The position numbers and the translations under genes are program-made. From contig CANQBV010000006.1 in assembly GCA_947589595.1 (NCBI GenBank), positions 1 to 64,000 of the forward strand: a stretch of DNA of 64,000 nt, in the 5' to 3' direction. This document shows, one piece after another, positions 46 through 5,427 of this stretch. Within the stretch, counting starts at the first letter, position 1; each line of letters starts with the position of its first letter. The notes beneath the pieces were generated by a model, which searched no databases, was not told the origin of the DNA, and saw only the letters and a list, made by a program, of their open reading frames with translations. This stretch comes from an uncultured Clostridia bacterium (lineage in GTDB: Bacteria; Bacillota; Clostridia; Oscillospirales; SIG627).

Positions 46-1416
46 ATGGCAACGGTAAATATTCTGCAAAGCAAACGACTGCAGACGAGAGCCGGTCTCG
101 CGTTCATCCTCTCCTATTGCAAGCGGGAAAGCAAAATCCGATACGGCGACCGCCGCCTTGCGACCGGTGTAAACTGTGTGGCAGAATCGGTCTACCGCGA
201 AATGATGAATACCAAAATGCAGTACGGAAAAACCGACGGACGGATGTACTATCACTTTGTGCAATCCTTTTCTCCGAAGGAAAAGCTCACGCCGGAAACG
301 GCGCATGAGATCGCTCTGCGATTTGCCGAGAAACAGTTCGGCGGCTACGAGGTCTTGGTCGCCACCCATGTGGATCGGGAGCATATCCATTCCCATTTTA
401 TCCTCAACAGCGTAAGCTGTGAGGACGGACGAAAGTACCACTCGGACAGAGAAAACCTCCAAGCGCTCCGGCAGGCGTCGGACGCGCTCTGTCTGCAATA
501 CGGACTCTCGGTTGTGCAGCCGAAGGAAAAATCACAAAAGGTCGGACAGATGTCGTCCCGCGAGTACCGCTCCGCCGAGCGCGGGGAGAGTTGGAAACTG
601 CGTCTCGCCGTCACCATTGAGGACGCCATGAAGTATGCCCGTTCCAGGGAGCATTTCCTTTCGCTCATGGAGGCGGAGGGCTATGCCGTGAAGTGGACGG
701 ACGAGAGAAAATCGATCACCTACACGACGCCGGAGGGATTCCGGTGCCGGGACAATAAACTGCACGAAGAAAAATTTTTGAAGGAGAACATGGAATATGA
801 ATTCGGAATCCGAACGGAAATCCTTGAAGGAATTGAAAGAACAGGCCAGAGCGCAGATCCAGACGGCGGCGAAAGCCGAACCCTGCGTAACGGTGACCGA
901 ACCGAACTGGAAGGCGTTGATCGCCGCGCAGAATACGCAGGTCAAGATGCTCGCGGAGATACAGGACGGGCTTACCCTGCTGGCGACGGAGGAAAAGATT
1001 ACGGACTATCTGGACAGGCAGATGGAACTGTTGGAGCAGTACTCGGAGAACAGCAAGACCATTACCGAACGGTTTCAGACGGAGATGAAGAAGCTGTCGC
1101 AGGAATCGGCCTTGGAAATCGGGAAAGCGATGAAGGAAACCGAGATACGGGTTGGGAGTATGAAAGAAATCTTTTCAAACAGTCTCTCCTCGGAGCGAGA
1201 TACGATGAAGAAATATACGAGGCGGCTGTTTTGGATCGCGCTGATCCCTTCGCTCCTTCTGCTGCTCTTGGAGCTGACGCCGCGTATCTGGCAGCTTCTC
1301 TCGTCGGTATTTTAGAAAACGACCATCCGGTGGAGGACAGCACCACCATGCGCCGTCCCCACAGGCAGAAAAAGAAACAGGAGCAAGGTCACGGCCCCGT
1401 CATGGGCGGGATGTGA
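46..1416 (+). CDS. Relaxase/mobilization nuclease (MobA/VirD2 family)
   Basis: Predicted to nick one strand at oriT and stay covalently attached to the 5' end during transfer. The 456-residue protein has a relaxase domain in about residues 1-250, with the metal-binding histidine cluster HVDREHIHSHF (H108, H113, H115, H117) followed by the strand ending FILNSV. The catalytic tyrosine should be N-terminal; Y24 and Y33 are candidates. From about residue 255 the protein is low-complexity, Gly/Asp/Glu/Arg-rich and ends in a basic tail. That half coincides with a second gene in another frame (797-1315), which probably explains its odd composition. It starts four bases after the previous stop, in the recombinase operon. 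Family assignment is firm; the subfamily is not. Confidence 0.9.
   Translation: MATVNILQSKRLQTRAGLAFILSYCKRESKIRYGDRRLATGVNCVAESVYREMMNTKMQYGKTDGRMYYHFVQSFSPKEKLTPETAHEIALRFAEKQFGGYEVLVATHVDREHIHSHFILNSVSCEDGRKYHSDRENLQALRQASDALCLQYGLSVVQPKEKSQKVGQMSSREYRSAERGESWKLRLAVTIEDAMKYARSREHFLSLMEAEGYAVKWTDERKSITYTTPEGFRCRDNKLHEEKFLKENMEYEFGIRTEILEGIERTGQSADPDGGESRTLRNGDRTELEGVDRRAEYAGQDARGDTGRAYPAGDGGKDYGLSGQADGTVGAVLGEQQDHYRTVSDGDEEAVAGIGLGNRESDEGNRDTGWEYERNLFKQSLLGARYDEEIYEAAVLDRADPFAPSAALGADAAYLAASLVGILENDHPVEDSTTMRRPHRQKKKQEQGHGPVMGGM
797..1315 (+). CDS. Membrane-anchored coiled-coil protein encoded inside the relaxase gene (MobB/MbeB-like position)
   Basis: A 172-residue frame lies wholly within the relaxase gene in the +1 frame. 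It starts at ATG 797, ten bases after a strong AAGGAG Shine-Dalgarno at 781-786. The product is helical and charged, with coiled-coil character over roughly residues 60-140, and ends in one hydrophobic segment (LFWIALIPSLLLLLLEL, about 143-160) before a short tail. ColE1 mbeB and RSF1010 mobB are likewise nested out of frame in their relaxase genes and act as relaxosome or membrane accessory proteins. I infer an analogous role from position, size and the membrane segment; I cannot claim sequence homology. Confidence 0.7.
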   Translation: MNSESERKSLKELKEQARAQIQTAAKAEPCVTVTEPNWKALIAAQNTQVKMLAEIQDGLTLLATEEKITDYLDRQMELLEQYSENSKTITERFQTEMKKLSQESALEIGKAMKETEIRVGSMKEIFSNSLSSERDTMKKYTRRLFWIALIPSLLLLLLELTPRIWQLLSSVF

Positions 1417-1738: not shown

Positions 1739-1764
1739 ATTTTTTTGATTTTGAATGGACTTCC

Positions 1765-1807
1765 GGCAAGCGATACGGTATACTGTGTGGTACCGTACCG
1801 GCTTGCC
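1765..1807 (+). promoter_or_regulatory. Inverted-repeat leader just before the recombinase gene
   Basis: Arms GGCAAGC (1765-1771) and GCTTGCC (1801-1807) enclose a second pair, ACGGTA (1775-1780) and TACCGT (1791-1796). The nested hairpin ends about eight bases before the AAAGGAGG ribosome site. It could be an RNA hairpin or an operator controlling recombinase expression. Function is inferred from position only. Confidence 0.4.
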
Positions 1808-1829
1808 CTGCATAAAAGGAGGATGCAAA

Positions 1830-3518
1830 ATGACAAGCCAAAAATATACAATACTCTACGGTAGATTAAGTCAGGACGACGGCAGAACCGTCGAGTCCAA
1901 CAGCATAACCAATCAGCGGCTTATGCTCGAAAAGTACGCCCGTGACAATGGGTTCGATAACGTCCTGTTCCTTGCTGACGACGGCTATACGGGAACGAAT
2001 TTCGAGCGTCCCTCGTGGAAACAGATCGAGGATTTGATCAAACGAGGCGAGGTGGAAACACTTATTGTCAAGGATCTCAGCCGACTCGGCAGAGAGTACC
2101 TGCAGGTAGGTTATTATCTTGAACTGTTCTTCCCGAACATGGGAGTTCGGTTCATAGCGATCAATGACGGAGTCGATTCGCTGGTTGAAGGCAGTAACGA
2201 TTTCAGCCCGATACGAAATTGGGCAAACGAGCTTCACGCAAAAGATTCCAGTAAAAAGGTTCGCGCGGTGAAGAAGCTCCAGGCAGAGCGAGGGGAACGG
2301 CTCGGCGGAAGACCGCCTTACGGCTACAAAAAGGTGGACACGGAAAGCAAAGAAATCATCCCAGACGAAGAAGCCGCGGCGGTGGTACAGCGGATCTTCT
2401 CCCTGTGCGCCTCCGGCAAAGGCCCCAATCAGATCGCCCGTATCCTTCGTGAGGATAAGGTGCTGACGCCCAGTAATTATTATTACCAAAAGCACAATAA
2501 AGGACATATTGGGTTGGATACTACCCGTCCCTATGCATGGAGCAGCAGTACCGTCACGGGTATCCTTGACAACAAGGTGTACCTCGGACACACCATCGGA
2601 CTGCGTACCACAACGATATCGTATAAAAATAAAACAACGGTACACCGCCCCGAAAGCGAATGCGCCGTTGTGGAAAATACGCATCCCGCGCTGATCACGC
2701 AGGAGCAATGGGATATCGTTCAGGATGTACGCGCACACAAGAAACGCACGCCGAAGCAGATGGAAGAACCGAATATATTTTCGGGACTCGCCTACTGCGC
2801 CGACTGCAAACGGACGATGGTACTACACCGGGCAAGCACGATGAAAAAGTCAGATTACAATTTCAAGTGCTACACCTACGGTAAGCGCGGCAAGGGAGAA
2901 TGCACGCCCCACCATATCCGCGAGGACGAGCTGTACGCCATCATACTGGATGACCTGCGTCGGGTGACACACTTCGCCCGAAAAAAGGAACGGCAGTTTG
3001 CGGAGTATATCAACCGCAAAAATACCGTACAGCTCCGTCAGGAGATCACGGCTCTGCAAATGGAGATCGACGCCATGCACAAGCGCCGAGATGAGCTGAC
3101 AGCCTTGTTCAAGCGACTGTATGAGGATAATGTGCTCGGCCGTGTTACCAACGAGCAGTTCCGGATTCTCTCCGCCGATTACAACGCCGAGCAAAGAGAA
3201 GTGGACGAAGCATTGCCGCTGAAAGAGGAACGCTTGGAAAAACTGAAATCGTCCGCGGCCAATGTAGACGCTTTCATCGAGAAAGCAAAACGGTATAAAA
3301 CCATTGACAAATTAACACCCGAAATCGTGCGCCTGTTTATTGCAAGGATCGAAATCGGAGAACGCACCGTGAAATACTCACGGCACTCCGCTCAAAAAAT
3401 TCGCATTATCTACCGTGACATCGGTGAATGGGATTACGACGATGCGGCTGAAGCAGAACAGCAACAACCGCTGACCGAAGTAATACCCGCAACACAATCG
3501 GAACCGTTTCCTGCATAA
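1830..3518 (+). CDS. Large serine site-specific recombinase (TndX/TnpX type)
   Basis: Catalyses excision and integration of the element through a serine-linked double-strand exchange. From ATG 1830 it is 562 residues. The catalytic domain opens with YGRLSQDDG (Ser14 nucleophile) and carries the SRLGRE motif near residue 87. A recombinase domain follows (LGGRPPYGYKK), then a zinc-ribbon-like region (CADC with CYTYG and a later Cys), a long coiled coil, and a C-terminal DUF4368-like segment (RLFIARIEIGERTV). I chose 1830 because AAAGGAGG lies just before it; a longer frame from 1755 would add residues translated from the inverted-repeat leader. It is intact, so the element may still move. Confidence 0.93.
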   Translation: MTSQKYTILYGRLSQDDGRTVESNSITNQRLMLEKYARDNGFDNVLFLADDGYTGTNFERPSWKQIEDLIKRGEVETLIVKDLSRLGREYLQVGYYLELFFPNMGVRFIAINDGVDSLVEGSNDFSPIRNWANELHAKDSSKKVRAVKKLQAERGERLGGRPPYGYKKVDTESKEIIPDEEAAAVVQRIFSLCASGKGPNQIARILREDKVLTPSNYYYQKHNKGHIGLDTTRPYAWSSSTVTGILDNKVYLGHTIGLRTTTISYKNKTTVHRPESECAVVENTHPALITQEQWDIVQDVRAHKKRTPKQMEEPNIFSGLAYCADCKRTMVLHRASTMKKSDYNFKCYTYGKRGKGECTPHHIREDELYAIILDDLRRVTHFARKKERQFAEYINRKNTVQLRQEITALQMEIDAMHKRRDELTALFKRLYEDNVLGRVTNEQFRILSADYNAEQREVDEALPLKEERLEKLKSSAANVDAFIEKAKRYKTIDKLTPEIVRLFIARIEIGERTVKYSRHSAQKIRIIYRDIGEWDYDDAAEAEQQQPLTEVIPATQSEPFPA

Positions 3519-3541: not shown

Positions 3542-3581
3542 GCGGTAAAGGCGGATGACAACCGCCATCCGCCTTTACCGC
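3542..3581 (+). repeat. Perfect 16-bp inverted repeat after the recombinase gene
   Basis: GCGGTAAAGGCGGATG (3542-3557) and its exact reverse complement (3566-3581) flank an 8-nt loop. It begins 23 bases after the recombinase stop. No U-tract follows on the plus strand, so it is not a textbook terminator. It may end the element transcript or mark the element end. Confidence 0.6.
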
Positions 3582-3651
3582 ACCTACATACTGTCAGAAG
3601 ATATCCCTATGAACACAAACAGAACTGGCTGCCGTGGTTTTTAACCCTTTT

Positions 3652-5427
3652 TTAATCCTCGATCGCAGCATGGCGCTTGTTGATCTCGGAAAGGATGGCC
3701 ATATTAAATTTTGGCTCGCGGGTGTCGTAATCATAAAGACCGTTCTTTTCCTGCTCCACGTCGGTCAACTGCGTGTAGCAGAAGCCGGAGATCATGGGGT
3801 TATCCAAAAGCGCGGTGGTCAGGCCCTCGTAGCGCGCGTAGAATTCCTCGTAGGACGAGGTGGTTTTTCCATAGCTCCAGTTGGACATACGGCCCGCCTC
3901 AAAGGAATTGTCGGCGAGCTGGAAGCCGATGCCGCCGTATTCGGAGATCATCACCGGCTCGCCGCGCCAGGTCTGGCGCTCGTGCCAGCGATCCTCTAGG
4001 ACGCCCTCGGTGGAAAGCCTATCGTAGGCGGCCTTAAAGACCTCGGGGTTCTGCTCATACCAGTGCAGGTCAAAAATATCGGTCACCACGTGGTAGTTAC
4101 CGCTGGTGTCCACGCAGGGGCGGGTGGGGTCGCAGAGCTTGGTCTGCTCATAAATAATGCGCAGCACTTCGTCGTTTTGCCGAGAAGTGCGAAATTCCTT
4201 CAGCGAGCTGCCGCCGATTTTGCCGTAGTCCCAGGTTTCGTTGAACGGCGACCAGCAAACGATCGCCGGATGGTTGTAGTCGCGCCGGACGGCGGAAAGC
4301 CAGTCGGGCAGGAAATACGCCACGGCTTCCAGCGTGGAATGGTCGATCCCCCAGTTGCCGTATTCGCCCCATACCATGTAGCCGAGCCGATCCGCGTGGT
4401 AGAGGTAACGCGGCTCAAATACCTTCTGGTGGAGCCGGGCGCCGTTGAAGCCGGCTTTCATACCAAGCTCAATATCCTGAATCAGCGCCTCCTCGCTGGG
4501 CGCGGTGCAGATTCCGTCCGGATAAAAGCCCTGGTCCAGCACCAGGCGCTGGAAAACGCTCTTGCCGTTGAGAAGAAATTTCATGCCGCAAAATTCAATC
4601 GTACGCAGGCCGAAATAGGTTTTCACCTCGTCCTCACCGAAACGCAGCACCACGTCATAGAGTCGGCCGTTGCCCAACTCCCACAAGTGCTTTTCGGAAA
4701 GCGCGATTTCCAGTTCGCCGTGCACGGAAAGATTCTGCTTTTTCGCCTCGCCGACCTTTTTGCCCTCGTAAAAAACCTCTGCGGAAAAGTCGCCCTTGCC
4801 GCATAATTCCGCCTGCACGGAAACGGTGGCGTTTTCGGCGTCGGTGAGGATCTTCGCGTGCTTGAGATAGCTTTCCGGCACGAATTCCAGCCACACCGTC
4901 TGCCAGATGCCGGTAGTGCGGGTATAAACGCAACGGCACGAAGCGTAGCTTTCGCTCTGCTTGCCGCGCGCCTGCCTGCCGGAGCGAACGTCGTCCAGAC
5001 AGGAAACGGTGACAATATTTTTGCCAACCTGTAAAAGGGGCGTGATATCGTATTCAAAAGAACCGTACCCGCCGATATGCGGCAGCCCTGCCGATTTTCC
5101 GTTGATCCATACGCGGGTTTCGAAGTCGGCGGCGCCGACGTGAAAAATCACGCGCTTGCCGGAAAGCTGTTCTTCTGAAAATTCCAGCACGCGCTTGTAC
5201 CACACGCAGAACATAAAATCAAGATGCCCCACGCCGGAAAGACGACTTTCCGGGCAGAACGGAAGCGTGATCTTGCCGGAAAGGCTTTCCGCCTCCACAA
5301 GGCCGCGCATTTCGCCGCTGACGCCGTTGTCGATCTCAAACTGCCATTCGCCGTTTAAATTCAGCCAATTCTTTCTTTCCCACTGGGGATTGGGGTGCTC
5401 CGGTCTCGGAATACGGGTTTCGTTCAT
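3652..5427 (-). CDS. Glycoside hydrolase family 2 enzyme (beta-galactosidase/glucuronidase-like)
   Basis: A 591-residue cytoplasmic glycosidase (no signal peptide) with the GH2 layout: jelly-roll sugar-binding domain in about residues 1-180, an immunoglobulin-like domain to about 275, then a TIM barrel. The general acid/base is E397 in WSPFNETW and the nucleophile is E496 in ISEYGG, both placed as expected. GH2 includes beta-galactosidases, glucuronidases, mannosidases and others; substrate cannot be read from sequence alone, although its shortness resembles compact intracellular forms. It has its own promoter and no transporter neighbour, and it abuts the mobile element end without being broken by it. 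Confidence 0.88.
   Translation of the reverse strand: MNETRIPRPEHPNPQWERKNWLNLNGEWQFEIDNGVSGEMRGLVEAESLSGKITLPFCPESRLSGVGHLDFMFCVWYKRVLEFSEEQLSGKRVIFHVGAADFETRVWINGKSAGLPHIGGYGSFEYDITPLLQVGKNIVTVSCLDDVRSGRQARGKQSESYASCRCVYTRTTGIWQTVWLEFVPESYLKHAKILTDAENATVSVQAELCGKGDFSAEVFYEGKKVGEAKKQNLSVHGELEIALSEKHLWELGNGRLYDVVLRFGEDEVKTYFGLRTIEFCGMKFLLNGKSVFQRLVLDQGFYPDGICTAPSEEALIQDIELGMKAGFNGARLHQKVFEPRYLYHADRLGYMVWGEYGNWGIDHSTLEAVAYFLPDWLSAVRRDYNHPAIVCWSPFNETWDYGKIGGSSLKEFRTSRQNDEVLRIIYEQTKLCDPTRPCVDTSGNYHVVTDIFDLHWYEQNPEVFKAAYDRLSTEGVLEDRWHERQTWRGEPVMISEYGGIGFQLADNSFEAGRMSNWSYGKTTSSYEEFYARYEGLTTALLDNPMISGFCYTQLTDVEQEKNGLYDYDTREPKFNMAILSEINKRHAAIED

Follow-up and report, generated by a model that had tools for sequence, protein, structure and literature searches.

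The relaxase gene at the start of the window (the whole stretch of 64,000 nucleotides analysed here, from an uncultured Clostridia bacterium) overlaps in the +1 frame a second, unannotated gene, which almost certainly belongs to a real protein-coding family nested in relaxases, to judge from sequence comparison. Its frame, the selection acting on it, its conservation and its hydrophobic end are established. The nested family extends across many elements, more widely than a single sequence would suggest, and is best read as a new sequence family found mostly in mobilizable-type elements. On balance, its product is probably a tail-anchored accessory protein of the MobB/MbeB kind that links relaxosome and membrane.

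Table 1. Features at the start of the window (+, forward strand).
Feature	Position	Strand	Basis or remark
Upstream gene, last codons; probably MobC/NikA-like, truncated by contig start	1..41	+	Sequence; name inferred from relatives
MOBP/VirD2-like relaxase, 456 aa, HVDREHIHSH metal-binding motif	46..1416	+	PF03432, E 2.6e-39
Shine-Dalgarno AAGGAG of nested gene	781..786	+	Read from sequence; encoded by relaxase residues KE
Nested gene	797..1315	+	+1 frame, 172 aa; N-terminal motif, long helix, QxGxxxE-type motif, C-terminal membrane helix (predicted)
TGWEYER motif of relaxase frame	1147..1167	+	Overlaps nested RVGSMKE (1148-1168); constrained in both frames
C-terminal hydrophobic (predicted membrane) helix, nested protein	1226..1282	+	Hydropathy
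Small ORF, 93 aa	1457..1738	+	Counterparts 3' of relaxase in L002 and L003
Large serine recombinase (Resolvase, Recombinase, Zn ribbon, DUF4368)	1755..3518	+	Pfam domains
Near-perfect inverted repeat 3' of recombinase; candidate terminator or element end	3543..3583	.	By eye

The nested open frame (797-1315, forward strand) starts with ATG, comprises 172 codons and lies +1 relative to the relaxase ORF (46-1416), with AAGGAG at 781-786, 10 nt 5' of the ATG. The ORF survey and Kyte-Doolittle hydropathy thus confirmed what the earlier note had read there, namely a 172-codon frame within the relaxase with its own AAGGAG and a C-terminal hydrophobic helix; the relaxase half above it, described as low-complexity, is by eye rich in Gly, Asp, Glu and Arg. 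The open run opens a few codons ahead of the ATG and spans 177 codons, compared with 172 in the gene. Of 2000 synonymous recodings of the window relaxase tail, 358 kept a run of at least this length, as did 23 of 2000 codon permutations; for one relative (L020), an equally long run was retained in 1016 of 2000 recodings. Openness by itself is therefore weak evidence, and the open frame of the window, taken singly, is only mildly unusual. The combination of an open frame with a C-terminal hydrophobic segment was found in 0 of 1000 recodings of the window and, as a mean over the 51 loci described below, in 0.5%, whereas a segment of at least 1.54 was observed in all 51.

The nested protein matched 8 of the 391 genomes of the class, its own genome counted; the weakest match (L011) covered 53 residues with five stops, at a locus devoid of a relaxase. 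A search with the relaxase domain (residues 1-245) yielded matches in 141 of 394 order genomes and 109 of 391 class genomes at E 1e-20. Only the better matches became loci, of which 94 related-relaxase loci remained after removal of duplicates; L004 and L011, lacking a relaxase match, had been dropped early as well. Nested genes were detected by running a profile of the nested proteins on all three frames of the relaxase strand at each locus, complemented by a direct ORF survey.

An intact nested gene in the same slot and the same +1 frame was found in 51 of the 94 loci, including the window. Loci were chosen for a start codon close to the end of the domain and for a length of at least 90 codons, the hydrophobic segment being no criterion; four of 55 loci thus selected were removed (L072 as outgroup, L041 for a contig end, L080 for a frameshift, L017 for an early stop). 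Most of the 51 seeded the profile, so that their profile matches are expected. The genes span 127-187 codons and start 16, 19, 22 or 25 nt past the matched relaxase-domain segment in every case, the first possible start being ATG (38 loci), TTG (9) or GTG (4). A Shine-Dalgarno-like 5-mer precedes the start in 50 of the 51 loci (the exception by the pattern used being L034). At most loci this tract is encoded by relaxase KE, and eight loci with KG instead (L007, L013, L026, L027, L036, L051, L077, and L087) retain AAAGGA or AAAGGGG. Where the nested gene is present, 77-132 residues (median 111; 45 of the 51 having GWE) separate the relaxase domain from GWE. A profile search of 398 phylum genomes matched five, two of them already known; all three new matches (L120-L122) are also nested within relaxases of the same family.

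Searching with the nested protein gave no match in the plasmid collection and one in the phage collection, an unannotated faecal scaffold; no relatives were found in the viral contigs searched. Three GenBank scaffolds labelled "Bacteriophage sp." bear relaxases of the same family (MT838398.1, L069; MT839295.1, L075; MT839225.1, L076), the first and third together with the nested gene. These scaffolds may be mobile-element fragments. One genome (G715, contig C1) has the relaxase family in several divergent copies that lie far apart.

Conservation in both frames was compared as the earlier note had proposed, by splitting changes according to their effect in both frames and pooling counts over 14 chosen pairs, which are not strictly independent. 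The nested frame proved constrained, with a dNN/dNS of 0.386 (bootstrap 0.29-0.50) compared with 0.884 (0.70-1.15) in the same frame upstream of the nested gene and 1.00 (0.85-1.19; 12 pairs) in the +2 frame of the overlap. The relaxase frame was nearly free in the overlap (dNN/dSN 0.823, 0.59-1.05), compared with 0.077 upstream and 0.19 past the nested stop, where the alternative frame reached 0.73 (0.53-1.02). Values of single pairs in the nested frame ranged from 0.19 to 0.92, the latter from the poorly aligned pair L023/L047. Within the overlap, substitutions shifted from relaxase codon position 3 toward position 1, i.e. nested position 3. For L005/L014, substitutions by relaxase codon position numbered 16:14:54 upstream and 34:22:10 inside the overlap; the shift is missing in some pairs, e.g. 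L079/L084.

A block-wise analysis comprised 12 pairs (10 of the 12 for blocks bounded by the TGWE motif, as L053 and L085 are without GWE); L023/L047, for its alignment, and L038/L039, for a relaxase stop, were excluded from it. Ratios for the nested and relaxase frames were (i) 0.33 and 0.51 over nested codons 1-18; (ii) 0.37 and 0.91 in the middle block; (iii) 0.25 and 0.18 in the TGWExER block; and (iv) 0.32 and 0.74 from there to the nested stop. On the basis of these ratios, the nested gene is under purifying selection over its entire length, and the relaxase frame in the overlap, which forms a linker between the relaxase domain and TGWExER, is almost free to vary; only at TGWExER are both frames constrained. 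We also noted that the relaxase domains of L035 and L083 are 98% identical in DNA, yet the two differ at 37 bases over 153 overlap codons, which suggests recombination in the relaxase tail.

The nested protein is predicted to be mostly helical with a C-terminal membrane anchor. In the window protein the hydrophobic segment corresponds to residues 144-162 (Kyte-Doolittle 2.04). All 51 intact proteins have such a segment, with a 19-residue mean of at least 1.54 (median 2.25; at least 1.6 in 50 of them) and an end at 87% of protein length or beyond, and basic residues stand directly ahead of it in most of 13 proteins displayed. The consensus of 42 aligned members has M1, an initial MNSxxE...ELK and a QAGKxxE motif in which G120 is nearly invariant; the N-terminal motif of the window protein is of the MNSxSExxSxxELK type. 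AlphaFold2 placed a helix at 3-26 and a single long helix at 38-171 of the window protein (best of five models, mean pLDDT 77.8, the others 48-67; pTM 0.29; 3 sequences in the alignment).

Neither the window protein nor the 42 intact members scanned with it (of 51) had a consistent family match in Pfam, NCBIfam or PHROGs. The families listed in those scans (25 of 28, 25 of 34, and 25 of 26) were coil-rich or unrelated and matched weakly and sporadically (best E 3.1e-5; no family with more than 3 members), and no MbeB model was among the matches listed for the 42 members in Pfam (25 of 28 families). A profile search of the Protein Data Bank returned a calcium channel as best match (E 0.0036) as well as a designed protein, both attributed to helix bias and rejected. 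Annotation pipelines tend to retain one of two overlapping frames, which probably explains the missing family match. No description of a gene nested in relaxases of this family turned up in the literature searched, which was mainly open-access and included a section of PMC5704250.

To place gains and losses, we used a tree of 89 relaxases (L096, L067, L071, L073, and L074 left out). All intact nested genes fall into one clade of 65 rows (support 99/98); no nested gene of the same family occurs in the 24 rows of the two outer groups. Inside the clade, the gene is absent from seven loci, of which L049, L050, L091, and L103 have GWE 20-55 residues past the domain and L025, L052, and L075 have no GWE. 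With labels assigned by hand and midpoint rooting only, the fewest gain/loss changes on the tree number six. Single stops break the nested frame in L017, L022, and L046, with homologous sequence continuing after the stop; frame changes near the junction in L080, L087, and L096 affect the relaxase too. L041 and L048 are truncated by contig ends, and in L039 a stop cuts the relaxase tail and the nested frame is intact. Many of these exceptions come from draft or metagenome assemblies, where assembly errors are possible. Stops in the nested frame beside an intact relaxase, held in the earlier note to speak against a gene, therefore do occur (L017, L022, and L046), but as a minority, with 13 relatives affected even when frameshifts and absences are counted against 51 intact. 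Being absent from seven and broken in six relatives, the nested gene appears dispensable in some elements.

A hydrophobic stretch also occurs in certain relaxases themselves. Among the 54 loci whose nested gene is intact or interrupted once, it exceeds 1.5 in 10, and among the seven clade members without a nested gene it reaches 1.5 in four, so tethering may not depend on the nested protein. The stretch, often GAxIGLAxGI-like, was seen in the relaxase tails of L023, L026, L034, L049, L050, L051, L083, L090, L091, and L103.

The window shows the end of an element only, the remainder being cut by the contig start. Its order is relaxase, small ORF, serine recombinase with DUF4368, and then an ORF on the opposite strand. 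Both the PF03432 domain and, by eye, the HxDxxHxH motif are present in the relaxase, which we take to be MOBP, also in view of the PLSDB typing of distant relatives. The small ORF matched nothing in the Pfam or NCBIfam scan. The full domain set of the recombinase, whose true start may be an ATG near 1830, bears out the assignment to a TndX-type element. Directly 5' of the relaxase, an ORF scores above the Pfam threshold for NikA-like (PF21983) in seven of nine scanned relatives, those of L020 and L024 having no match; of 10 loci tried, three yielded no ORF under the rule used. In eight relative stretches (12.7-20 kb each), scanned for part of their ORFs and leaving out the ORF before the L105 relaxase, an AAA_25 ATPase lies 5' of the relaxase in six, and 3' of it are a serine recombinase in five and a tyrosine integrase in one (L111). 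DUF4368 is also found in L105, L109, L110, and L112. The serine recombinase of L107 (5085-7286, 733 aa) is without DUF4368 and has a C-terminal SpoVT_C domain.

As the channel gene, VirD4 was searched (PF02534 only) around one reference relaxase per genome in 15 genomes, and was absent within 40 kb on the same contig. Four of the 15 genomes, among them the window's own (85.65% complete), are without PF02534; in the others it is either on a different contig or 40 kb or more away from the reference relaxase. VirD4 genes flank the nested-bearing copy L078 (G512:C3:22699-26430) at about 20 and 23 kb, one on each side, perhaps because a mobilizable element sits inside a conjugative element, and another lies about 30 kb from the broken copy L080. 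Owing to these two cases, some copies may belong to larger conjugative elements. For most copies, mobilizable-type elements without their own channel are likely.

We propose that a ribosome would enter internally at AAGGAG/ATG on the relaxase message, by which the anchor protein would be synthesized beside the relaxase. The C-terminal helix would insert into the membrane and leave the helical part on the cytoplasmic side; this part, together with the conserved N-terminal motif, might hold the relaxase-DNA complex or the coupling protein. In this manner, a mobilizable element without a secretion system could bring its DNA to a helper's channel.

It is rather unlikely that the nested membrane protein, while real, has another job, such as entry exclusion, interference with the helper, or control of relaxase levels through ribosome traffic. 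Our knowledge is limited to sequence and selection, and in ColE1 a gene annotated as MbeD family mobilization/exclusion protein adjoins mbeB, which leaves room for such roles. However, a location inside the relaxase gene in 54 of 54 intact loci (the 51 and the three from the phylum search) suits a partner of the relaxase, and the one hit of the class search at a locus devoid of a relaxase was L011, the 53-residue match with five stops. Very improbable is a frameshift fusion in which the catalytic domain is continued in the +1 frame as a membrane-bound relaxase. Such a fusion would fit the +1 frame being open slightly before the ATG and the frame changes close to the junction in L080, L087, and L096, but Shine-Dalgarno and start codon are retained, the tract even where the relaxase residue differs, and the return of relaxase-frame constraint past the nested stop (dNN/dSN 0.19) indicates that a normal relaxase tail is made. 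That there is no gene, the open frame arising from codon usage in the relaxase tail alone, is virtually untenable: the retention of equal runs in part of the recodings agrees with it, but the nested-frame ratio compared with internal controls near 1 and the joint occurrence of open frame and hydrophobic end (0.5% expected, 51 of 51 seen) do not, and selection and conservation rule out a chance open frame, barring wrong alignments.

Taken as a membrane anchor of the relaxosome, the nested protein is a candidate for the docking of channel-less elements onto a helper. It is a conserved component of many mobile elements with no consistent match in the three family databases, and the overlap is a clear bacterial case of a long same-strand overlap with selection quantified in both frames. 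Over most of it, selection preserves the hidden gene rather than the annotated relaxase frame.

Among known systems, ColE1 is the closest in arrangement. The parallel drawn in the earlier note was borne out on the ColE1 sequence: mbeB (2868-3386) lies in the same slot, +1 in mbeA, beginning past the catalytic domain at RLKGAF-YEQSF with a Shine-Dalgarno in the LKG codons. The relaxase domains of ColE1 and the window family align up to the nested start, weakly (hhalign probability 40%). Both nested genes are thus inside a MOBP relaxase gene, straight after the catalytic domain, and encode 172 aa with a helix and a hydrophobic segment after an N-terminal part, and ColE1 is a small mobilizable replicon, much as most carriers of the new gene are likely to be mobilizable. 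In contrast, the hydrophobic segment of MbeB is followed by a conserved region of some 60 aa, whereas that of the new protein stands at its end, and MbeA, differing in this from the window relaxase, is of the HEN type (PMC12857230, in excerpt). No homology to MbeB was found: hhalign of 42 nested with 6 MbeB sequences gave a probability of 8% over 17 columns and a score of 23.2, the controls reaching 20.2 (reversed) and 17.4 (best of 60 column-shuffled). Hence, of the suggestion of an independently evolved or distant MobB analogue, the likeness in slot, frame, size and build stood, and no homology was detectable.

Two outer loci, L066 (2237-2782, relaxase orientation) and L072 (LC817946.1, a Waltera plasmid), have other +1 overlapping ORFs (181 and 199 aa), which likewise encode a hydrophobic segment at the C-terminus and extend past the relaxase stop; the L072 frame runs from 22 nt after the domain. 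The two show no detectable likeness to each other (blastp E 2.7; the identity of the L072 ORF is uncertain, a second hit being listed), and the nested-family profile matches neither. Either the slot was used several times or the sequences diverged past recognition. Tentatively, and with considerable doubt, the slot behind the MOBP catalytic domain may be regarded as a recurrent gene birthplace, where unrelated tail-anchored anchors arose repeatedly by overprinting. LKE/LKG codons would be read as Shine-Dalgarno and the YE dipeptide (taTGA) as start, and the nested family, the L066/L072 type and ColE1 mbeB would each have become a relaxosome membrane anchor. As an alternative to overprinting of a linker, the relaxase might have grown over an older overlapping gene, with L066/L072 as a hint.

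A +1 open frame that we take to be mobB is also found in a pC221-type staphylococcal plasmid, from 4287 inside mobA (3608-4555), read to 4500. MobB of RSF1010/R1162 is a membrane protein and, as Parker and Meyer reportedly found in 2007, is needed for relaxase transport signals. The new gene resembles it in arrangement: the overlap of RSF1010 mobB with the relaxase gene, stated in the earlier note, is supported by PMC5572225 (in excerpt), according to which mobB and repB overlap mobA. The RSF1010 relaxase is MOBQ, different from the MOBP type here (PMC12857230, in excerpt). In the MOBP5 (HEN) plasmids pMARC2 and pAES4, mobA, mobB, and mobC overlap (PMC3832669, in excerpt), a likeness of mobB by gene overlap. 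Finally, compared by description, and with a nested gene unmentioned in the excerpt, IME_Rho_tet and other integrative mobilizable elements of gut Firmicutes likewise combine relaxase, MobC and serine recombinase in a short element (PMC12904643).
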